NCBI GenBank assembly: GCA_017860455.1
Contig: JAGDMF010000007.1
Coordinates: 1-64,000 of the forward strand
Source: Bacteroidota bacterium
Lineage (GTDB): Bacteria; Bacteroidota; Bacteroidia; Bacteroidales; WCHB1-69
DNA length: 64,000 bases
Reading direction: 5' to 3'
In this document: piece by piece, positions 10,191 to 52,896 of the stretch
Layout of the letters: each line of letters begins with the position of its first letter
How positions within the stretch are numbered: the stretch's first letter is position 1
Notes under the pieces: model-generated
The model's database searches: none
What the model was told of the DNA's origin: nothing
The model's input: the letters and a program-made list of their open reading frames with translations, nothing else
Program-made: the position numbers and the translations under genes

Positions 10191-12650
10191 ATGAAAAATT
10201 GTCTCAGTAAATTTTTTTTCCTTCTATTGGTGATCTTTCCATATTCAGGAATTGCACAATTTACTAATTCCGATCAACAACAGTTGCAAACCGTTTCCAA
10301 TCTATCCGTTTCAGATATCGTTTTAAATACACCTATCCCCTATTCTGTAAATAATGCAAATTCATATTATTTTCCTTATGTATTTTATCAGGAAGAGTAC
10401 TCCTGTGCGCAGGCAAGTTCATTAGTTTATCTATTTACTTATGAATTAGCTGTAAGAAGAAATAGATTTGTACTATTCGATGATCCATACAATAAGTATC
10501 ACATTCCGAGTCACTTTGCCTGGAATTTTTTCAATGAAACCAATAGTTTTAAAGGAGTAAGTTTCATGGATACCTGGCATTTGATTAGAACTGCAGGATC
10601 TCCATTTACTCCGGATTGGGGGACTACTTACTTTGGAGGGTCTTCCAAATGGATGACCGGATACTCCAAATACTACGAAGGAATGAAAAACAGAATTTCT
10701 GAAATGAAAGCGATTCCAACGGATACTGAAACAGGAATTTTAACATTAAAACATTGGTTAGCAAACCACTGCTCAGATGATGTAATGGGAGGGTGTGCCA
10801 ATATCTTTGTTTCCAGTAATCAACCAAATGGGATTTTACAACCAGGAACTGAAGAAGCGGGCAAACATATTTACACTTATTTTTCATCTCCTACTCACTC
10901 TATTACTATTGTTGGGTATAATGATTCCATTCGGTATGATTTTAATAATGATGGACAATACACGAATGGAATAGACATCACAGGTGATGGTGTTGTAAAT
11001 GTGAAAGATTGGGAGATCGGTGCCGTGTTGATTGTAAACAGTCATGGTCCAACTTTTGGAGATAATGGTTTTTCTTATTTACCCTATAGATTGCTGGCCA
11101 ATACAAGCTCTAACGGAGGGGTTTGGAATGCCTGTACTTATGTTGTTGAAGTAAGAGATGAAGTGTTCCCTCAAATTACATTTAAAGCAACAGTCAAACA
11201 TAATCGCCGGAATATGGTTAAAATTTCTGCAGGAATATCTTCTGATACATCAGCAACAAATCCTGAAACAATCATAGACTTTGGCGTTTTTAATTATCAA
11301 GGTGGCCCTTACTATATGCAAGGAGCTGCTTATGAGGGATATCAATCCTTAGAGTTGGGTTTAGATGTAACTCCATTGCTAAACGCTATGAATCCTGACC
11401 AACCTTATAAATTCTTTTTTATTATTGATGAAAATGACCCATCCGGGTTAGGGACAGGTGAGATTACAAAATTTGCTTTAATGGATTACACTTCCGGAAT
11501 GGGTACCGAATTTGCGGCTACTCAAACCAATGTGAATTTAACAAACAATAATAGAACAATGGTTTCTGTTGTCAGATCAATTCACTTTAGTAAACCTGAG
11601 ATCTCAACCGGAATCGTGAATACGATCATCAACACTCCTTTTCAAGTGCCGTTAACTGCCACACAGGGAAAACCACCCTATCGTTGGGATTTTAATTATG
11701 ATTATAGTATAGAAGAGTTTTCGGGTAGTTTTCCTACTATAAATGGGACAAATTTGGTATTGAGTAGTAGTGATAACGGTTATGGGACTCTCAATATTCC
11801 TTTTAATTTTCCATTTTTTAATCAAAAATACAATCAAATTGTAATCAATGCGGATGGATTTATCACATTCCGTTACGAAGAATTAAACTGGCCCTATTTA
11901 TGTTCTAAAGAAAATCAAAATAGAGCAACCAAAATGATGGCCCCATTTTTAGCAGACTTGGTTTTATCTTCTGTCAAATATGAAATGGATACAAATATTG
12001 TTACTTTATTTATTACCGGTAAAGTTAAAAATGAGATTGATAATGGAATAAGATTTGTTGTCAAATTATATAAATCAGGAGTTATTGAGTTTTATTATGG
12101 GGATATGATCTATTTGAGTACCAACTTTGAATCCGTCATTTCAAGGGGAGATGACACCCATTATTTTAGAACTGAAATTTCAGGAGCAGCAGCACCACTA
12201 TGCAGCAATCGCAATTTTAGATTTATTCCACCTGCTCGAATCGATGGACTCAATATTTCCAGAACCGGTATTGTATCAGGAAATTTTCCAAACTCCATTT
12301 ATAGTGGTTTATTTAGTGTAACCTGTTATGATAACAATGATGTTAAATGTAATAAAAATATCTATTTTAACTGCACTCCCGTTAGTATTTCAGAAAATCT
12401 TACTTCTAATATGATCCAGGCTACACCAAACCCCAGTTCAGGAGTTTTCAAAATAGCTAATCCAAATAGTTCCTATTCGATAAAAGAGATTTTCATTTAT
12501 AACTTAGCAGGAAAAGAGATTCGGTCATTTTCAATAAATCAATACAGTACAGAAATAAATTTAACAGATTTACCTTCTGGTGTTTATATTGCAAAAATCG
12601 TATTAGAAACAGATCAGGAACAAAAAATTAAATTAATAATTGAACATTAA
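10191..12650 (+). CDS. T9SS-secreted papain-like cysteine peptidase (819 aa)
   Basis: It has a signal peptide ending near SGIAQ (residue 23), a papain-like (C1A-type) core and a C-terminal T9SS type A sorting domain (about residues 740-819, starting ATPNPSSGVF). The catalytic set is inferred as Q67, C72 (SCAQASS), H236 (THSITIVGY) and N283 (VNSHG). Between His and Asn lies an EF-hand/dockerin-like calcium loop pair (D250-x-N-x-D-G and D262-x-x-x-D-G...D273). A beta-sandwich region follows. It is expected on the cell surface or outside. It starts two bases after ispG and is followed by an SGNH protein and an acylation cassette. A larger paralogue is at 25731-29648. Substrate unknown. Confidence 0.8.
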   Translation: MKNCLSKFFFLLLVIFPYSGIAQFTNSDQQQLQTVSNLSVSDIVLNTPIPYSVNNANSYYFPYVFYQEEYSCAQASSLVYLFTYELAVRRNRFVLFDDPYNKYHIPSHFAWNFFNETNSFKGVSFMDTWHLIRTAGSPFTPDWGTTYFGGSSKWMTGYSKYYEGMKNRISEMKAIPTDTETGILTLKHWLANHCSDDVMGGCANIFVSSNQPNGILQPGTEEAGKHIYTYFSSPTHSITIVGYNDSIRYDFNNDGQYTNGIDITGDGVVNVKDWEIGAVLIVNSHGPTFGDNGFSYLPYRLLANTSSNGGVWNACTYVVEVRDEVFPQITFKATVKHNRRNMVKISAGISSDTSATNPETIIDFGVFNYQGGPYYMQGAAYEGYQSLELGLDVTPLLNAMNPDQPYKFFFIIDENDPSGLGTGEITKFALMDYTSGMGTEFAATQTNVNLTNNNRTMVSVVRSIHFSKPEISTGIVNTIINTPFQVPLTATQGKPPYRWDFNYDYSIEEFSGSFPTINGTNLVLSSSDNGYGTLNIPFNFPFFNQKYNQIVINADGFITFRYEELNWPYLCSKENQNRATKMMAPFLADLVLSSVKYEMDTNIVTLFITGKVKNEIDNGIRFVVKLYKSGVIEFYYGDMIYLSTNFESVISRGDDTHYFRTEISGAAAPLCSNRNFRFIPPARIDGLNISRTGIVSGNFPNSIYSGLFSVTCYDNNDVKCNKNIYFNCTPVSISENLTSNMIQATPNPSSGVFKIANPNSSYSIKEIFIYNLAGKEIRSFSINQYSTEINLTDLPSGVYIAKIVLETDQEQKIKLIIEH

Positions 12651-13660: not shown

Positions 13661-15388
13661 ATGATCCAAACATTTAATCAACTCAAAAAAAATCTCAAAA
13701 AAGATTTATCTTTATTACCGGTCATTAAAATAGCATTACTCGGTGATACAGCTACACAGTTTTTATCTACAGCTTTAAAGGGTGTCGGCGTCGAAAAGGG
13801 TTTTAATTTTGATTTATTTGAAGCAGATTATAATCAAGTTGAGCGCCAATTTTTAGATACTACTTCTGAACTGTTCCAATTCGATCCAGAATATATCATT
13901 GTTTTCCAATCTACTCATAAACTTTTATCGAAATTTAATACCACTTCTATAGAAAAACAAATCTCGGTTTTTAATGATCGAATAGCGTTTATTAAAACAA
14001 TTTGCAGCACAACTTCAACCAGAATTATTTATTTTAATTATCCTGAGATTGATGATCAGGTGTTTGGAAGTTATGCCAACAAAGTTGAAAATTCGTTTAT
14101 TTACCAAATTCGTCGATTGAATTTGGAACTTATGAATCTTTCACAGCAATTTCCTAACCTATTTATTTGTGATATCTCATCAATTCAAAATAAATTGGGT
14201 AGAGATTTCATGTTTGATTCTTCGGTATATGTGAGTACAGAGATGGTTTTATCAATTGATACCATTCCTTATATAGCATACAGAACAATCGATATTATTT
14301 CTGCGGCACAGGGATATTTTAAAAAATGTCTGATTTTAGATTTGGATAATACGTTATGGGGTGGAATAATTGGAGATGATGGAATTGAAAATATACAACT
14401 GGGACATGAATTAGGCATTGGCAAAGCATTCTCTGAATTTCAACAGTGGATATTAAAATTAAAAAACAGAGGTATTATTCTAGCTATTTGTTCTAAAAAC
14501 AATGAATCAATTGCAAAAGAACCATTTGAAAAACATCCTGAAATGGTTCTTCATCTAGATGATATTGCCGTTTTTGTTGCGAATTGGGAGAATAAAGCCG
14601 ATAATATTCGTAAAATTCAATCTATTTTGAATATTGGTTTTGATTCAATGGTTTTCATTGATGACAATCCATTTGAAAGAAATCTGGTACGGGAAAACAT
14701 TCCCAATATTACAGTTCCGGAACTTCCTGAAGATCCGGGTGAATATCTGGAATATTTATATAGTTTAAATCTTTTTGAAACCATTTCCTATTCCAATGCA
14801 GATTTAGAGCGAACTAAACAGTATCAGGTTGAATCTCAAAGAGCTGCTTTACAGTTTAGTTTTACTAATGAAAAGGACTTTCTAAAGAGTTTAGCTATGG
14901 TTTCAGAAGTGGCTCCCCTTAATCCATTTAATATACCCCGTGTTGCACAATTATCACAACGCAGCAACCAGTTTAACTTAAGGACTGTTCGCTATACTGA
15001 AGCTGAAATTGAAGCTTTGGCACAAAATGATCAATTTCAAAACATTACATTTACACTTTCAGACAAATTTGGTGAACATGGGCTCATTTGTGTTATCATA
15101 TTAGAAAAACAAAACTCTGATACCCTGTTTATTAACACTTGGTTTATGAGTTGTCGTGTTTTAAAAAGGGGAATGGAAAACTTTACTTTGAATACAATTG
15201 TAAATTATGCCAAAAAGAATGGATTCAAAAAAATATTGGGTGAATATATTCCAACATCTAAAAATGGAATGGTTGAAAATCATTATATCCAACTTGGGTT
15301 TTCACCGGTTGAAAATATTAACCATCACCTTTTTGAACTAGATGTTGAACATTATATGGATAAAGAAACTTATATAACTATTAAATAA
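13661..15388 (+). CDS. HAD-IIIC (FkbH-like) enzyme, probable acyl/glyceryl-ACP loading
   Basis: A 575-residue FkbH-family protein. The N-terminal region (about 20-210) carries a GDT block like an SGNH fold, as in the FkbH_N domain. The HAD core starts at LDLDNTLWGG (D227, D229) and has FIDDNPFERN as the acidic motif. The C-terminal GNAT-like region contains WFMSCRVLKRGME. Known FkbH enzymes take 1,3-bisphosphoglycerate and load a glyceryl unit onto a carrier protein. The carrier-protein gene follows six bases later, then an MBOAT gene, so the loaded group is probably handed to a membrane acyltransferase. The ATG at 13661 is chosen because the upstream TTG is in the promoter. Confidence 0.85.
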   Translation: MIQTFNQLKKNLKKDLSLLPVIKIALLGDTATQFLSTALKGVGVEKGFNFDLFEADYNQVERQFLDTTSELFQFDPEYIIVFQSTHKLLSKFNTTSIEKQISVFNDRIAFIKTICSTTSTRIIYFNYPEIDDQVFGSYANKVENSFIYQIRRLNLELMNLSQQFPNLFICDISSIQNKLGRDFMFDSSVYVSTEMVLSIDTIPYIAYRTIDIISAAQGYFKKCLILDLDNTLWGGIIGDDGIENIQLGHELGIGKAFSEFQQWILKLKNRGIILAICSKNNESIAKEPFEKHPEMVLHLDDIAVFVANWENKADNIRKIQSILNIGFDSMVFIDDNPFERNLVRENIPNITVPELPEDPGEYLEYLYSLNLFETISYSNADLERTKQYQVESQRAALQFSFTNEKDFLKSLAMVSEVAPLNPFNIPRVAQLSQRSNQFNLRTVRYTEAEIEALAQNDQFQNITFTLSDKFGEHGLICVIILEKQNSDTLFINTWFMSCRVLKRGMENFTLNTIVNYAKKNGFKKILGEYIPTSKNGMVENHYIQLGFSPVENINHHLFELDVEHYMDKETYITIK

Positions 15389-15394
15389 TAAATT

Positions 15395-15634
15395 ATGGAA
15401 AAAACTGCAATTTTAAGTCAAATACAAGAAATTTTTCGTGATATTTTAGATGATGATACTTTAATATTACAATATGAAACAACGGCTCAAGATGTTGAAG
15501 AATGGGATTCTTTAACACACATACAATTAATTGTAGCAATCGAAAAACATTTTAAAATTAAATTTACTTCAAGAGAGATTTTATCATGGAAAAATGTCGA
15601 AGAAATGGTAGAAAGTACATTTATAAAACTGTGA
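15395..15634 (+). CDS. Acyl carrier protein of the MBOAT cassette
   Basis: A 79-residue carrier protein with the phosphopantetheine attachment serine S39 in EEWDSLTHIQLIVAIE, where W-D-S-L is typical of dedicated carrier proteins. It sits between the FkbH gene and an MBOAT gene with gaps of six and four bases. It is probably not the fatty-acid synthesis ACP but the shuttle carrying the group loaded by FkbH, comparable in position and size to DltC. Confidence 0.9.
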   Translation: MEKTAILSQIQEIFRDILDDDTLILQYETTAQDVEEWDSLTHIQLIVAIEKHFKIKFTSREILSWKNVEEMVESTFIKL

Positions 15635-15638
15635 TAAA

Positions 15639-17093
15639 ATGATCATTAATTCTCTTTCATTTCTATTATTCTTCATTTCTGTAATTCTCATATATTATAC
15701 CTTTTTAAAAGAAAAAACGGTTCTCCAAAATTGGTTGATATTTTTTGCTAGTTACTTCTTTTACGGAATGGCTAATTGGAAAATGATTCCAATATTATTC
15801 CTAACTACCGTAATTTTTTTTATTTTAGGCCAACTCATTCAAAAACATAAAGGGCTTCCAGCTACTTTTTATACTACTTTTGGAGTCATTTTAGGTGTTG
15901 GTATTTTATTGTATTTTAAATACTTGAATTTCTTCATCCAATCTTTTACCGATTTGCTGAATGGGATGGGTTTTCAAGTCAATTTTGAAACATTTGCTAT
16001 TATTTTACCGCTAGGTATCAGTTTTTTTACATTTAGGTTAATCAGTTATATCATAGAAATCAATAGAGAAAAGATTGAAGCCACAACCAATTTTATAACT
16101 TTTGCTACCTATATTTCTTTTTTTCCATCATTAATGTCTGGGCCTATTGATAAACCCAACGGATTTATTCCCCAATTAGAAAAAAAACGTAGTTTTGACT
16201 ACAATTTAGCAGTTGATGGAACACTTCAAATCATATGGGGAATGTTTAAAAAAATGGTAATAGCCGACCATTTAGCTCATTTCATTAATCCTGTTTGGAA
16301 TGATATTTCTCAGCATAGTGGAATTACACTGATCCTCACTGCTCTTCTTTATTCCATCCAAATGTACACTGATTTTTCGGGTTATTCCGATATGGCAATT
16401 GGGGTAAGTAAAATTTTAGGATTCAGAATTTCTAAAAATTTCAATTATCCATTTTTCTCAAGAAATGTAGCTGAATACTGGAGAAATTGGCATATTTCTT
16501 TAACATCATGGTTAACAGATTATATTTTCATGCCGTTAAATGTCAAAATGAGAAATTATGGGAATACCGGATTAATTGTTGCAATTATGATAAATATGTT
16601 GGTAGTTGGATTATGGCACGGATCAAATTGGACTTTTGCCCTATTTGGATTTTACCATGGTGCTCTTTTTATTCCTCTGATTTTAACAGGTTCTTATAAT
16701 TCCAGAAAAAAATTAAAAACTAATACATGGGGATTAGCTAGTTTTCAAGATACATTAAGAATTGTTGGAACATTTTTACTGGTTACTTTGGGATTAGTCA
16801 TATTCAGAGCAGATTCAATTTCTCAGTTTTTTGAATTTATTCGTGGTATTTTTAATGTTGCAAATCCTTATTTCCATTTGAATTCTGAAATAAATAAATT
16901 AACACCCATTTTTATTTTTACAACCATCATGTTTGCTTTAGAATGGATATACAGATCATACGAATTTCCTTTGCTAAAAATCATTGAAATAAAAAAGAGC
17001 CCTTTAAAATGGATTTTTATTTATGGAATAATAATGATTATCATTTTGTATGGCAAATTTGATCAATCCAGTTTTATCTATTTTCAATTTTAA
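15639..17093 (+). CDS. MBOAT family O-acyltransferase (DltB/AlgI-like)
   Basis: A 484-residue polytopic membrane protein of the MBOAT family (DltB/AlgI/PatA group). The hallmark histidines are H327 in GLWHGSNW and H285 in WRNWHISLTSW, and the PLGISFFTFR and YTDFSGYSDMAIG blocks are present. Such enzymes move an acyl group from a carrier across the inner membrane towards an extracytoplasmic acceptor. Lying directly after a carrier-protein gene and before an SGNH/DltD-like gene strongly suggests the donor is the loaded ACP. It differs clearly from the second MBOAT at 29667-31088. Confidence 0.9.
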   Translation: MIINSLSFLLFFISVILIYYTFLKEKTVLQNWLIFFASYFFYGMANWKMIPILFLTTVIFFILGQLIQKHKGLPATFYTTFGVILGVGILLYFKYLNFFIQSFTDLLNGMGFQVNFETFAIILPLGISFFTFRLISYIIEINREKIEATTNFITFATYISFFPSLMSGPIDKPNGFIPQLEKKRSFDYNLAVDGTLQIIWGMFKKMVIADHLAHFINPVWNDISQHSGITLILTALLYSIQMYTDFSGYSDMAIGVSKILGFRISKNFNYPFFSRNVAEYWRNWHISLTSWLTDYIFMPLNVKMRNYGNTGLIVAIMINMLVVGLWHGSNWTFALFGFYHGALFIPLILTGSYNSRKKLKTNTWGLASFQDTLRIVGTFLLVTLGLVIFRADSISQFFEFIRGIFNVANPYFHLNSEINKLTPIFIFTTIMFALEWIYRSYEFPLLKIIEIKKSPLKWIFIYGIIMIIILYGKFDQSSFIYFQF

Positions 17094-17098
17094 CAGTT

Positions 17099-18253
17099 AT
17101 GTTTAAAAAATATATAATTTTCATTTCTTCTATTTTTGTTCCTATTCTTTTGATTCTTTTATTGGTTAATATAAAAGTTGATAGTGGATTTGTGGTAAAT
17201 AATAGAAGTAATGAAATTTCAAATATCCTATTGTCCGGAAAGAATGCTGCTGTTATTGTTATTCCTTCGCAATGGGGAAGTTTGCAAAAAGCATTGGTTA
17301 AAAACAAGTTACAATCAGACAATAAAACCCCTTCTGAAATTGTCGTTTTTGGGAACAGTAGATCTTCAGAAATTCATTCCGGTTTATTTCCTAACAACAC
17401 TTTTTTTAATTGTGCGTTACCTGGAGGAAATGTTTTAGATATGATTGCAATTTATGGTCTGTATAAAAAATCGAATTTACTCCCAAAATATGTTCTGATT
17501 TCTATTGATCCATGGTCATTTTATGCCAGAAAAAAATCAACAATCAATAATGATATCCATTATTTTGCTGATACTACATTACCATTAACTGTTAATCTAG
17601 ATTTAATTAATGAATATAACAATGGTTTAAATTATTTAAACATCAATGAACCAAAACTAACAGAAAAAAAAGATTCAAAATGGAATCTTAAAACCTTTAA
17701 AGAAATTTTAAATCCAACTTATTTTCAGTTAAACATTAAATATTTAATAAAAAAAACAGTTTTGGCCACAGATCAGTTGAAAAAGAAATCATATTTTGTA
17801 ATAAGATCGGATGGCGGTTATTCTTTAGCTTTTCCAAATCAAATTGATTCAATTGCCCTGAAAGAAAAATCAAATCAATTTGTAGAAATCCATAAATCAA
17901 ACTATTTTATAACCATTGATAATCATTGTATTTATTGGACTTATTTTAAAAAATTATTAACCCAACTTCAAAAAGATGGGGTTACACCAATAATATATAT
18001 TTCTCCTTTGAATCCAATTGTTTATGACAACTTAGCCCAAGTTGATGAAATTGACTTAGAATCAAAAATACGTCAATTTTGTGAGGAAAAATCAATAATA
18101 GTATTGGGATCATTTAATCCTCACAGGTATGGGTATCATACCATCGGCCATAATTTTATAGACTACTATCATCCAACTAAATCAGTTGTTGAAACTATTT
18201 TTAAATTTCACCAAATTGAATTGGATTCTATTGGAATTCAAATAAAAGATTAA
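17099..18253 (+). CDS. Membrane-anchored SGNH/DltD-like protein
   Basis: A 384-residue protein with an N-terminal membrane helix (about residues 5-25) and an extracytoplasmic domain with the SGNH-type block VVFGNSRSSE (S87) and a C-terminal D355-x-x-H358 (DYYHPTKS). Size, topology and place after the MBOAT gene match DltD. It would complete transfer of the acyl group to the final polymer. It starts five bases after the MBOAT stop. Overall similarity to DltD is only in the fold motifs, so the role is inferred. Confidence 0.65.
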   Translation: MFKKYIIFISSIFVPILLILLLVNIKVDSGFVVNNRSNEISNILLSGKNAAVIVIPSQWGSLQKALVKNKLQSDNKTPSEIVVFGNSRSSEIHSGLFPNNTFFNCALPGGNVLDMIAIYGLYKKSNLLPKYVLISIDPWSFYARKKSTINNDIHYFADTTLPLTVNLDLINEYNNGLNYLNINEPKLTEKKDSKWNLKTFKEILNPTYFQLNIKYLIKKTVLATDQLKKKSYFVIRSDGGYSLAFPNQIDSIALKEKSNQFVEIHKSNYFITIDNHCIYWTYFKKLLTQLQKDGVTPIIYISPLNPIVYDNLAQVDEIDLESKIRQFCEEKSIIVLGSFNPHRYGYHTIGHNFIDYYHPTKSVVETIFKFHQIELDSIGIQIKD

Positions 18254-18978: not shown

Positions 18979-18990
18979 CAAATCATATAT

Positions 18991-19050
18991 ATGGAGTTCA
19001 GAAACCATTTAAACGAGGCGAACCGAAAAGCCAAAAGAGTAGGGATTTAA
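18991..19050 (+). CDS. Possible 19-residue leader peptide
   Basis: A short frame, ATG at 18991 to TAA at 19048-19050, would give a basic 19-residue peptide (MEFRNHLNEANRKAKRVGI). It lies between the promoter and the membrane-protein gene. The piece GAGGCGAA...AAAAGCC inside it recurs as AAGGCGAA...AAAAGCC before the next gene (about 19707-19724), and the two halves can pair as a small hairpin, so the conserved thing may be RNA structure rather than peptide. Speculative. Confidence 0.25.
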   Translation: MEFRNHLNEANRKAKRVGI

Positions 19051-19068: not shown

Positions 19069-19668
19069 ATGAGTACAGAAAATGTAGAATTAATGCGCAT
19101 GGCCAGAGAATCTCTAAAAGGGAAATGGGGTTTGGCAATTGGAACTTTTGTTGTATGTATGATCATAGTCGGAGCTATCCAATTGATCCCAATGGGTGGT
19201 GGTCTCCTTGCCATTTTCATTACAGGTCAGTTTACATTAGGATTGACAATCTTTGCTTTGTCTATTTCCAGAAATCAAGAAGCAAAATTGGAACAAATTT
19301 TCTTAGGCTTTAACAGATATGGTACTGCATTAGGAGCATATCTCTTAATGGCACTTTTTACATTTTTATGGACTTTACTTCTTATTATTCCCGGAATCAT
19401 TGCAGCACTTTCTTATTCCTTAACTTACTTTATTTTAGCAGATGACGAAACTATTGGTGCCAATGACGCTATAGACAAAAGTAAAAAAATGATGGATGGG
19501 TATAAATGGAAATTATTCTGTTTAGGATTAAGATTCTTCTTACTAGGGTTACTTTGTATTTTAACTTTAGGAATTGGATTCTTTTGGTTATTTCCTTATA
19601 TACAAGTTACTTATGCGAAATTCTATGATGATGTTAAAACTAACTATATAGAATCTCAACAAGTTTAA
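19069..19668 (+). CDS. DUF975-like integral membrane protein
   Basis: A 199-residue membrane protein with about four to five hydrophobic segments. The layout resembles the DUF975 group: short N-terminal amphipathic piece (MRMARESLKGKWGLAIG), pairs of helices and a central DDETIGANDAIDKSKKMMDGYKW motif between helices. The function of the family is not known to me. It is preceded by its own promoter and a possible leader element, and followed by another small membrane protein with a similar leader. Confidence 0.7.
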   Translation: MSTENVELMRMARESLKGKWGLAIGTFVVCMIIVGAIQLIPMGGGLLAIFITGQFTLGLTIFALSISRNQEAKLEQIFLGFNRYGTALGAYLLMALFTFLWTLLLIIPGIIAALSYSLTYFILADDETIGANDAIDKSKKMMDGYKWKLFCLGLRFFLLGLLCILTLGIGFFWLFPYIQVTYAKFYDDVKTNYIESQQV

Positions 19669-29666: not shown

Positions 29667-31088
29667 ATGGTTTTCTCTACTCCTCTATTCCTGTTCTACT
29701 TTTTACCTGTATTTTTGGTATTGTATTACATCTCCAATCATAAAATTCAAAATATTTTATTATTGGTTTTTAGTATTTTCTTCTACACCTGGGGCGCCCC
29801 TAAGTTTATCCTGATTGTTCTTGGTTCATTGCTGATCGACTTTTATATCATCAAAAAGATGAGCCACTATGAAGGGAATAAAAGAAGATGGTTCCTAATC
29901 GCTTCCATTATTTTAAATACAGGTTTTCTGTTGTATTTTAAATATGCCAATTTCTTTGTTGAAAATGTGAATAGCATCATGAGTTGGTTTGGAATAGAAG
30001 CTGTTTCGTGGACCAAAGTGTTACTACCGATTGGAATCTCGTTTTTTACATTCCAAAAAATGTCCTACACGATTGATGTGTATCGCAAAAATGGAAATCC
30101 ATTGAAAACGGTTTTTGATTATGCTCTTTACATTCTAATGTTTCCACAACTTATTGCAGGTCCAATCGTTAGATACAAAGAAGTGGAATCACAATTATAC
30201 GATAGATCTCAAAATAATGGATTCGATAATCGTTTAGTTGGATTTATACGATTTTCAATTGGGCTTTCCAAAAAAGTTTTAATTGCTAATGTATTGGCGG
30301 AACAAGCGGATGCCATTTTTGCAGTATCACCCGATTATTTCTCTACGGGAACAGCATGGATAGGATTATTAGCATATACATTCCAGATCTATTTTGATTT
30401 CTCTGGATATTCAGATATGGCATTAGGAATTGGAAAAATGATAGGATACGAATTTCCTGAAAATTTTAATTTCCCCTACATTTCACAGAGTATTTCAGAG
30501 TTTTGGAGAAGATGGCATATCACTTTAGGAAACTGGATGAAAGATTATCTTTATATTCCATTGGGTGGAAATCGGGTTAAAATTCAAAGGATATATCTAA
30601 ATCTGATCATCGTTTTTACCATTTCCGGTTTTTGGCATGGTGCAGCCTGGACATTCATTGCCTGGGGTGCTTATCATGGCATTTTCCTGATTGCTGATCG
30701 GGTTTTTCTTCTCAAAATTCTTCAAAAAATCGGTAAAATACCTGCAACCATCATCACATTCTTCTTTGCAATCATGGGATGGGTTCTGTTTCGTTCCGAA
30801 TCAATCTCTTATGCGATAAGTTTTTATCGGAAACTGTTCAGCTTTGACAATCGTATGGATGAATTCTATTTTGATAGCCGATTAGTTACTATTCTTTCTT
30901 TGGCTGCTCTTTTCTCTTTTATGGGAATTATTAAAAAAGTGGAACTCTATCAATATGATCTTTATAATAAAAATATAAAACTTAAACCTTTAATTGTCTC
31001 CGTTTTATGTGCTGTTGTTTTATATGTTTTATGCGGAGGTTCTTTGATGGCAGGAGGTTTTAATCCTTTTATCTACTTCAGATTTTAA
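29667..31088 (+). CDS. MBOAT family O-acyltransferase (AlgI-like)
   Basis: A 473-residue polytopic MBOAT protein with H324 in SGFWHGAAWTF and H284 in RRWHITLGNW; PIGISFFTFQKMSYTIDVYR and YFDFSGYSDMALG are AlgI-group hallmarks. With the next gene (AlgX/AlgJ-like) it forms the classic pair for O-acetylating an exported polysaccharide in the periplasm. No carrier-protein gene lies next to it, unlike the other MBOAT in the window. It starts 18 bases after the peptidase stop. Confidence 0.92.
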   Translation: MVFSTPLFLFYFLPVFLVLYYISNHKIQNILLLVFSIFFYTWGAPKFILIVLGSLLIDFYIIKKMSHYEGNKRRWFLIASIILNTGFLLYFKYANFFVENVNSIMSWFGIEAVSWTKVLLPIGISFFTFQKMSYTIDVYRKNGNPLKTVFDYALYILMFPQLIAGPIVRYKEVESQLYDRSQNNGFDNRLVGFIRFSIGLSKKVLIANVLAEQADAIFAVSPDYFSTGTAWIGLLAYTFQIYFDFSGYSDMALGIGKMIGYEFPENFNFPYISQSISEFWRRWHITLGNWMKDYLYIPLGGNRVKIQRIYLNLIIVFTISGFWHGAAWTFIAWGAYHGIFLIADRVFLLKILQKIGKIPATIITFFFAIMGWVLFRSESISYAISFYRKLFSFDNRMDEFYFDSRLVTILSLAALFSFMGIIKKVELYQYDLYNKNIKLKPLIVSVLCAVVLYVLCGGSLMAGGFNPFIYFRF

Positions 31089-31096
31089 TTGTAACT

Positions 31097-32410
31097 ATGA
31101 CAAAAATTAGAGATTCTTTTAACAATAGAAATTTGATCACTAAAATATTTTTTGGGGTTATCCTTTTTGTTTTATTGATTCCTGTAGGATTTTCATGGTT
31201 CAAACATGGATATGGTCCTGAATTAAACAGCATCAATAGATCGAAAGTATCAATCAAAGATCTAACTTTAAAAGATTTTATCAATAATAGTTTTCAGGAT
31301 AAAATGGAATCTGCCTGTAAAAACCCCATCTCTTTTGGAAACTATTGGGTACGGTTTCACAATGAATGGCAATATAGGTTATTCAGAGCATCCAAAACTG
31401 AAAAACTGATATTAGGGAAAGAGGATTATTTCTATGAAGAGATGTATATTACAGAATATCTTGGGCATAATTTTATCGGGGATCAACTGATGAAAAAACG
31501 GGTTGAAGAGTTGAAAAATCTTCAGGATATCCTAAAAAAAGAGTATCAAATTGATTTAATTCCTGTTATTGAACCCGGTAAAGCGTATTTTAGCCCGGAA
31601 TTTATACCGGACAGATACCGTCCCGACCAAAAAGGGCGTTCCAATTATGAAAGTTTTATTGATTGGTCTAAAAAACTTGGAGTTACCTATTTAGATATTA
31701 ATCAATATTTTAGAGAATTAAAAAAGAATGCTCCTCATCTGTTGTATTCAAAATATGGAGTTCATTGGAGTACTTTTGGATTGTGGAAAGCTGCTGATAC
31801 TTTAACTCATTTCATAGAAAATCAATGTAACATCAATTTACCGAAGATCATCCATTTGGGAGATACCAATTCCACATTCAACAAAGACTTGGATTTTGAT
31901 TTAGAGCCACCTATGAATTTGTTATGTGAACTTCCTCATGAAAAGATGAATTTTCCTATCAAAAAAATAGTGGCAAGCAACAACTCAACAAGACCTAAAG
32001 TATTAACTATTGGCGATAGTTACTATTGGGGACTGATCAATTCAGGATACACCGAACAAATGTTTTCTCAGCACGACTATTGGTATTACAATAAAACAAA
32101 ATGGCCCAATATTTGGGCATGGAACGATACCGTTAATATATCACAGTTAAAGCAACAGGTTTTGGAGCATCAGATCGTATTGATCATGATCACGGATGCT
32201 AACATATACAAATTTGGATGGGAGTTTTTAGAACAAGCATTAGTACAATTTGCCCCTAACACCAAAATAGATCCTGATTTACTGATTATCAACGATTTAT
32301 TTCGGGATAGCAACTATTACAATCAACTTCGGATTGAAGCTATTCGTCAAGGAATTTCATTTGAAAAATATCTTCAAATCAAAATTCAGGAGATTAAACA
32401 ACGAAAATAA
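31097..32410 (+). CDS. AlgX/AlgJ-like periplasmic O-acetyltransferase
   Basis: A 437-residue protein with one N-terminal membrane anchor (about residues 17-34) and an AlgX/AlgJ-type SGNH domain. Visible blocks are ILGKEDYFY (106-113), VIEPGKAYF, YGVHWSTFG with H223, and TIGDSYYWG with S308. In AlgX the histidine belongs to a D-x-H motif; here that position is G221, so the triad acid must differ or lie elsewhere. It would accept acetyl groups through the preceding MBOAT protein and place them on a surface polysaccharide. A long repeat array starts right after its stop. Confidence 0.82.
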   Translation: MTKIRDSFNNRNLITKIFFGVILFVLLIPVGFSWFKHGYGPELNSINRSKVSIKDLTLKDFINNSFQDKMESACKNPISFGNYWVRFHNEWQYRLFRASKTEKLILGKEDYFYEEMYITEYLGHNFIGDQLMKKRVEELKNLQDILKKEYQIDLIPVIEPGKAYFSPEFIPDRYRPDQKGRSNYESFIDWSKKLGVTYLDINQYFRELKKNAPHLLYSKYGVHWSTFGLWKAADTLTHFIENQCNINLPKIIHLGDTNSTFNKDLDFDLEPPMNLLCELPHEKMNFPIKKIVASNNSTRPKVLTIGDSYYWGLINSGYTEQMFSQHDYWYYNKTKWPNIWAWNDTVNISQLKQQVLEHQIVLIMITDANIYKFGWEFLEQALVQFAPNTKIDPDLLIINDLFRDSNYYNQLRIEAIRQGISFEKYLQIKIQEIKQRK

Positions 32411-51891: not shown

Positions 51892-52896
51892 TTATATTTG
51901 ATTTAACTCAAAAGCATATTCGTAACTGATTTCGCTTTTTCCTTTTTCGTTTTTCTTCCATGCTTCCTCTAAATGACTTAACTCAATCATGTTATGCGTA
52001 CTTGTAGACTTGAATGCACTTGCCACTTTTTCTAATGTTTCTAATTCTTTAGAAGAGAATAATTCTGCATTAAAAGATCTGTTTTCTCTTATTTTGAATT
52101 TTTCACCTGTATAACCTGTTGGAAATTCAGTTGTGTCAATATCTATCTCTTTATTGTTGGCTAAATATTCAAAAATACTTTGAAAATTATTAGGAACAGG
52201 CCCCATGTCAATTGCTTTATACCGCATCCCACTGATTGAAAAACAACTTTGTTTGAACATTAAAAAATCTGCATAAAATAGGAGCTTATTCATTTTGGTT
52301 TTATATGGTTCCAATTTTTCAGAAAAGAAAACGATCATTTCAGTAAATTTTTCAAAGTTGGGATTCCTATATCCTGAATAGATATCTGCTAAATGATTGC
52401 CCATTAAATAACCCTTGAAATTTAAATCAAAAATATTTCGTTTTCTTTCTTCTAGCAACAGCTGAGCTTTTTGGATGTATTTTTCTTTAATTTTTTCATC
52501 TAATGTTCCACATAATTCAACCATATCAATAAAGAATTTTGGGTCGTCCATCATCTGAATTAATTTGGCATTAGCGATACTGGGCATTTCTCCAGCTTCA
52601 TATTGTCGGTAACTATTTATCCCAAATCCTAGAATTTCTGACATTTTGACGGCAGATGAATTATATCGCTCTCTAATTCTTGTAATTTCATCCGGAAATG
52701 GAATGTTGAATTTATCACGGTATTGGTTATATACCTGATTCATATTTACTTCATCCAGAGATGTAGTTGTGAACTGTTCTCCACTATCCTCGCATAAATA
52801 ATAATGAAAAACAATTTCAAATGTTTCTTTTCTGAAATCCATTGACCTACGTTCTTTGGTCAGTTTCATTTCTTTACCGGTTATTGGACTTTTCAT
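51892..52896 (-). CDS. Antitoxin: MqsA-like HTH fused to Panacea (DUF4065) domain
   Basis: A 334-residue protein. The N-terminal part follows the MqsA plan (a MK-x-P start, then HYYLCEDSGEQF, then an HTH around residues 65-115 with SSAVKMSEILGFGINSYRQYE). The zinc-ligand positions corresponding to MqsA C3, C6, C37 and C40 read S3, T6, C35 and S38, so zinc is probably not bound. The C-terminal part (about 175-320) is a Panacea/SocA domain, with MNKLLFYADFLMF and YKAIDMGPVPNNF. Panacea domains act as antitoxins or protease adaptors. The toxin gene is six bases upstream. Confidence 0.82.
   Translation of the reverse strand: MKSPITGKEMKLTKERRSMDFRKETFEIVFHYYLCEDSGEQFTTTSLDEVNMNQVYNQYRDKFNIPFPDEITRIRERYNSSAVKMSEILGFGINSYRQYEAGEMPSIANAKLIQMMDDPKFFIDMVELCGTLDEKIKEKYIQKAQLLLEERKRNIFDLNFKGYLMGNHLADIYSGYRNPNFEKFTEMIVFFSEKLEPYKTKMNKLLFYADFLMFKQSCFSISGMRYKAIDMGPVPNNFQSIFEYLANNKEIDIDTTEFPTGYTGEKFKIRENRSFNAELFSSKELETLEKVASAFKSTSTHNMIELSHLEEAWKKNEKGKSEISYEYAFELNQI

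Follow-up and report, generated by a model that had tools for sequence, protein, structure and literature searches.

A predicted carrier-protein-dependent acylation cassette combining FkbH-type, MBOAT and SGNH-like proteins in a Bacteroidota genome

In the Dlt system (DltA, DltC, DltB, DltX and DltD), which D-alanylates teichoic acids, one operon encodes a carrier protein, an MBOAT acyltransferase and the SGNH protein DltD, together with the adenylating enzyme DltA and a separate microprotein, DltX, that carries the FxYxxF acyl-shuttle motif defined in PMC12148441. The O-acetylation systems PatA/PatB and AlgI/AlgJ/AlgX likewise join an MBOAT to an SGNH partner, with more than one periplasmic partner protein in the case of alginate; PatA, which takes its acyl group from acetyl-CoA, bears FxYxxF at its own C-terminus, and neither system includes a dedicated carrier. 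According to PMC12148441 (2025), Dlt alone among MBOAT–SGNH systems uses a carrier protein, the others evidently relying on acyl-CoA.

FkbH-like enzymes paired with stand-alone acyl carrier proteins (ACPs) are found in the tetronate glycerate-utilisation operons (FkbH-like, ACP, FabH-like; Mad7, Mad8, Mad16), where the formation of glyceryl-ACP from 1,3-bisphosphoglycerate is accepted chemistry (PMC7489565) and the product is handed to a FabH-like enzyme and ends in a polyketide chain. The locus described here has the FkbH enzyme and the stand-alone ACP of those operons, with the same catalytic residues, but an MBOAT in the place of the FabH-like enzyme; with Dlt it shares a carrier protein, an MBOAT and a DltD-like SGNH protein encoded together, but it has an FkbH enzyme instead of DltA.

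Organization of the locus and its proteins

The window analysed is a 64,000 nt stretch of a Bacteroidota bacterium genome (GCA_017860455.1, contig JAGDMF010000007.1, positions 1–64,000, forward strand). An earlier note on this DNA had described a set of four genes, FkbH-ACP-MBOAT-SGNH-like, with gaps of 4–6 bases, and the ORFs are present as described (Table 1), the gaps being 6, 4 and 5 bases in our ORF reading. It overlooked a second SGNH-like gene upstream, which from its position is possibly part of the cassette. Nor is the gene order a strict mirror of Dlt, as had been suggested, because the canonical order is dltXABCD (PMC5541007). The replacement of the adenylating enzyme is borne out: FkbH stands where DltA would, and no DltA-type enzyme was recognised beside the cassette.

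Table 1. Coordinates of the cassette features in the window
Feature	Position	Strand	Remarks
Second SGNH-like membrane-anchored protein, 302 aa	12656..13564	+	Directly upstream of FkbH; motifs G60-N-S62, DATH near C-terminus, H276
FkbH-type HAD-IIIC enzyme, 575 aa	13661..15388	+	FkbH_N, HAD core, C-terminal acyltransferase-like part with C498
Dedicated ACP, 79 aa	15395..15634	+	PF00550; phosphopantetheine site S39 in WDSL
MBOAT acyltransferase, 484 aa	15639..17093	+	PF03062; H285, H327
C-terminal FxYxxF acyl-shuttle motif FIYFQF of MBOAT (F479, Y481, F484)	17073..17090	+	Putative built-in DltX equivalent
Membrane-anchored SGNH/DltD-like protein, 384 aa	17099..18253	+	S87, D355-x-x-H358; predicted SGNH fold

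Profile searches place the FkbH enzyme in the HAD-IIIC family, matching it to PF21211 (7e-88; 294 bits, cut-off 27) and TIGR01686 (304.8 bits, cut-off 146.65), both far above the curated cut-offs. Its N-terminal and HAD parts (residues 2–379) are matched by 3slr (Bacteroides fragilis BF1531), a homologue of the 62% class with a solved structure. Seven residues (D227, D229, S278, K312, D334, D335 and C498) are identical in 81/81 FkbH proteins and are present also in operons of Streptomyces (L211), Methylosinus (L212) and Pseudalkalibacillus (L214) that are laid out like the tetronate glycerate-utilisation operon. From the OzmB literature, C498 is the predicted acyl-carrying residue. The candidate substrate, 1,3-bisphosphoglycerate, is inferred from family membership, at 25–30% identity to the tetronate-type enzymes. 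A pattern scan of viral contigs gave no FkbH relative. In Sinorhizobium meliloti 1021 (pSymB, L208) the FkbH frame is read as two overlapping ORFs; that of strain 2011 aligns in one piece.

The ACP matches PF00550 (4e-8), and its phosphopantetheine serine, S39, is present in 89/89 ACPs; four bases separate the end of its stop codon from the start of the MBOAT gene. The MBOAT, correctly recognised before, matches PF03062 (1.8e-18), and across an alignment of 24 relatives neither H285 nor H327 varies. Against the DltB model it scores 189.7 bits, below the equivalog cut-off of 375. Cassette MBOATs score 172–211 bits against this model, compared with 154–160 for the non-cassette MBOATs scanned (156–160 for the others of the source genome), which is only suggestive of a closer relationship to DltB; a DltB fragment used as outgroup in the tree of 113 rows described below had a very long branch.

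FxYxxF lies at the extreme C-terminus of 76 of the 80 MBOATs in the loci compared here, where 0.10 per 28 aa would be expected from its frequency elsewhere in these proteins. No separate DltX microprotein is present in the cassette, the gaps of which are so short, and to judge from the motif the DltX function is fused to the C-terminus of the cassette MBOAT. The cassette would in this way unite a carrier of the Dlt kind with a shuttle built into the MBOAT, as in PatA.

While the product of 17099–18253 has no Pfam match over the cut-off (DUF1574, at 1e-4, falls below it), its AlphaFold (AF2) model (pLDDT 80.3) shows an SGNH fold with an N-terminal helix at residues 2–27. Foldseek places DltD structures first, and all nine matches with E<=0.001 are DltD. 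VIA-align gives a Z of about 13 against DltD over 247–257 residues and an equal Z for smaller SGNH esterases over about 185 residues; that AlgX is missing near the top of the structure list is no evidence against a relation. With regard to the active-site residues named earlier (S87, D355-x-x-H358), S87 and H358 never vary among the 33 relatives aligned, but D355, albeit frequent, is not invariant. The second SGNH protein aligns with the SGNH proteins of the cassettes (S62 and H276 invariant in 20 rows), and its AF2 model (pLDDT 82) matches SGNH structures in Foldseek, including PatB (7tjb). Its closest relative found (L054:7767-8735, 1.6e-53) is encoded directly behind an MBOAT and directly before FkbH.

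Glycan biosynthesis genes were not recognised near the cassette in the window; the FkbH loci of relatives often lie inside glycan clusters. Five bases before the second SGNH gene ends the gene for an 819 aa T9SS-sorted protein (10191–12650, +), which has no Pfam domain except the sorting tail and in which SCAQAS and THSITIVGYND recall, by eye, papain-like peptidases. Beyond the cassette, a DUF805 RNA motif (RF03081, 62.4 bits; 18986–19049, +) lies just upstream of a gene with a DUF975 match (19069–19668), and a single protein encoded at 51892–52896 (-) matches both the MqsA antitoxin and the SocA-like Panacea domain.

Co-occurrence and the FkbH-linked MBOAT clade

The earlier note had named co-occurrence of the four genes in other genomes as a test of its reading, and many genomes prove to carry the set. 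GTDB species genomes were scanned with the FkbH protein and the best 80 loci kept, of which 78 have an ACP within 3.5 kb and 63 a same-strand MBOAT no more than 4.5 kb away; in 57 an ORF of 270–420 aa comes directly behind the MBOAT. Since three loci (L055, L063 and L075) come from one Flavobacterium paronense assembly, have identical MBOATs and are not independent, counts over the 80 loci are slightly inflated. With MBOATs occurring about once per 5 Mb in the Bacteroidota sampled, we estimate that a gene picked at random would have one on a given strand in the 4.5 kb around it with a chance of roughly 0.001, as against the 63/80 observed. The 17 loci with no MBOAT within 4.5 kb, four of which have less than 4.5 kb of downstream sequence, indicate that FkbH-ACP can have other uses. 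Near three FkbH-ACP pairs with no nearby MBOAT (L027, L045, L085) there is a gene of 505–624 aa; the three are of one family, and the L045 member looks like an adenylating enzyme.

Gene order varies, and the MBOAT-SGNH pair may precede FkbH-ACP (L019, L021). Outside the Bacteroidota, cassette genes are found in Methylobacter (L081) and a Campylobacterota bin (L056), and the quartet recurs in permuted order in alphaproteobacteria at about 33% FkbH identity: VOC, MBOAT, SGNH-like, ACP and FkbH on S. meliloti pSymB (L205), and ACP, FkbH, MBOAT, SGNH-like and VOC in Rhodobacteraceae SC52 (L206). The MBOAT tails there read FLYQGF and FIYFNF respectively. The S. meliloti gene directly after the MBOAT (L205:7215-8444) is annotated as a TonB-dependent receptor; with GGST, DPGH and an N-terminal hydrophobic stretch, it is, read by eye, probably a misannotated SGNH partner. 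Its Rhodobacteraceae counterpart, with GSSR and DAAH, also appears SGNH-like by eye, and an SGNH profile detected neither protein.

The MBOATs themselves track the FkbH-ACP pair. A tree of 113 rows gathers 52 of the 55 cassette MBOATs, together with four more MBOATs of FkbH/ACP loci, into a single group (SH-aLRT 100) that includes 0/32 control MBOATs; the three cassette MBOATs outside it are from Ferruginibacter. A reciprocal search from the MBOAT side covered 392 Bacteroidota genomes, and in the 40 neighbourhoods read an ACP lay near the MBOAT in three loci only, every one with FkbH. When 48 MBOATs from this search were added the group grew to 59 rows, all FkbH/ACP-linked, with 0/73 unlinked MBOATs inside it (42 new and 31 controls; the controls have short flanks, were called unlinked before their whole neighbourhoods had been read, and in a few cases repeat genomes of the new set). 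A more careful tree of 92 rows supports the clade, to which the cassette MBOAT of the window belongs, at 100/100 (bootstrap/SH-aLRT).

By HMM, none of the 42 unlinked reciprocal-set MBOATs has an ACP within 4.5 kb, and a motif check of the same loci gave a single small ORF with a DSL-like match, unlike an ACP. The source genome encodes four further MBOATs with neither ACP nor FkbH next door. One of these four is the second MBOAT of the window (29667–31088, 473 aa, ending FIYFRF), which served as an internal control; its gene comes after that of a large T9SS-sorted protein and is paired with a downstream gene for an AlgX-like SGNH protein (the pair spanning 29667–32410, +).

Proposed relay and its alternatives

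We regard it as likely that these genes form a carrier-protein-dependent envelope acylation cassette with a glyceryl cargo, passed from FkbH to ACP to MBOAT to SGNH protein. On the strength of its family and conserved residues, FkbH would take 1,3-bisphosphoglycerate, remove phosphate and charge the ACP, attaching D-glyceryl via Cys498 to the carrier's phosphopantetheine arm. On the model of DltB/DltX and PatA, the ACP would dock on the cytoplasmic face of the MBOAT, where His327 would move the glyceryl group to Tyr481 of the FxYxxF tail. From the tail the group would pass to the DltD-like SGNH protein, at Ser87, and from there into an ester with a hydroxyl group on a glycan outside the cytoplasm. 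The upstream SGNH protein may take part in this last transfer or redirect it. In the literature searched we found no biochemistry for any cassette member. The acyl transfer through ACP and MBOAT to a surface polymer suggested earlier stands in so far as the parts match such a relay, but the modification itself is not new, as set out below.

Tailoring genes, which could alter the cargo, were scored within 4 kb at the 63 MBOAT-positive loci. No extra gene was recognised in 22, nor in the window; 23 have MaoC and SDR only, 11 a methyltransferase and/or VOC protein without MaoC or SDR, and the remaining seven are mixed or have transketolase halves. In L033, L035, L036 and L040, split transketolase subunits are encoded in or beside the FkbH-ACP-MBOAT cassette. 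We infer that MaoC would dehydrate glyceryl-ACP to an enol/pyruvyl thioester and SDR reduce this to lactyl-ACP, and that the methyltransferase would yield O-methylglyceryl; the VOC protein could epimerise the alpha carbon, like methylmalonyl-CoA epimerases. A lactyl route from FkbH is associated with the bryostatin loading module; the open-licence literature searched gave no support for such a route. Because no recognised tailoring gene accompanies the window cassette, unmodified glyceryl is the simplest cargo to predict for it. That the same relay here carries another cargo, with glyceryl-ACP remodelled before transfer (to lactyl-ACP by MaoC and SDR, for example) by enzymes encoded elsewhere in the genome, seems to us unlikely: more than a third of the MBOAT-positive relatives have exactly MaoC and SDR, others have methyltransferase, VOC or transketolase genes, and the source genome is only 65% complete, but the 22 relatives and the window lack any recognised tailoring gene nearby.

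More doubtful still is that two separate systems share the operon by chance or co-regulation, FkbH-ACP feeding a cytosolic N-acyltransferase or other sugar-biosynthesis enzyme and MBOAT-SGNH performing ordinary O-acetylation from acetyl-CoA. In its favour, 17/80 loci have FkbH, mostly with an ACP, and no MBOAT within 4.5 kb, the O-polysaccharide of Flavobacterium psychrophilum is believed to involve an ACP together with a cytosolic N-acyltransferase (PMC6519341), and acetyl-CoA is the PatA donor (PMC12148441). It is the MBOATs that argue otherwise, being in their own clade that tracks FkbH-ACP while 0/42 unlinked MBOATs of the reciprocal set have an ACP within 4.5 kb; nor was another acyl-using enzyme or acyltransferase recognised beside the cassette in the window. 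A small secondary-metabolite pathway of tetronate or methoxymalonate type, in which MBOAT and SGNH protein would together serve as a tailoring enzyme, would account for the FkbH and ACP pair that such pathways contain (PMC7489565), but it is highly improbable, since polyketide synthase, FabH-like and matching oxidoreductase genes were not recognised around the window cassette.

Relation to known systems and implications

While the relay would be Dlt-like in its working, we would not class the cassette with Dlt, as it has no DltA and no separate DltX, and its MBOAT falls far below the DltB equivalog cut-off; its host, moreover, is a diderm Bacteroidota member, with no evidence of teichoic acid here. 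It differs from PatA/PatB and AlgI/AlgJ/AlgX in its conserved ACP and FkbH. The dedicated ACP makes the FkbH-linked systems an exception to the statement in PMC12148441 that Dlt alone among MBOAT–SGNH systems uses a carrier protein.

The modification, which the earlier note did not know to be described, is already known chemically, with both glyceryl and lactyl decorations reported on polysaccharides. Gellan gum has a glyceryl ester of the kind proposed for the cassette, in the form of an L-glycerate substituent (PMC9104527, PMC4432689), whereas 1,3-bisphosphoglycerate would give D-glycerate unless it were epimerised. What seems to be undescribed is the enzyme route, or gene combination: in the open-licence literature we found no account of FkbH working with an MBOAT on a surface polymer, and the only two papers naming both deal with cyanobacterial peptides.

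We would give roughly even chances to a broader reading, in which these loci belong to a widespread family of Gram-negative glycan acylation systems that depend on a carrier protein and had gone unrecognised. FkbH would channel an intermediate of glycolysis to the surface, and the hydroxyacyl group displayed there, be it glyceryl, lactyl, O-methylglyceryl or others, would depend on exchangeable tailoring genes (none, MaoC+SDR, methyltransferase, VOC epimerase-like or transketolase). If true, FkbH and an ACP would constitute a second, unrelated way of charging MBOAT–SGNH systems, one that links glycolysis directly to surface decoration and offers a candidate route to the glyceryl and lactyl groups that bacterial polysaccharides are known to bear. 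Among laboratory strains, S. meliloti has a diverged version of the cassette on pSymB.
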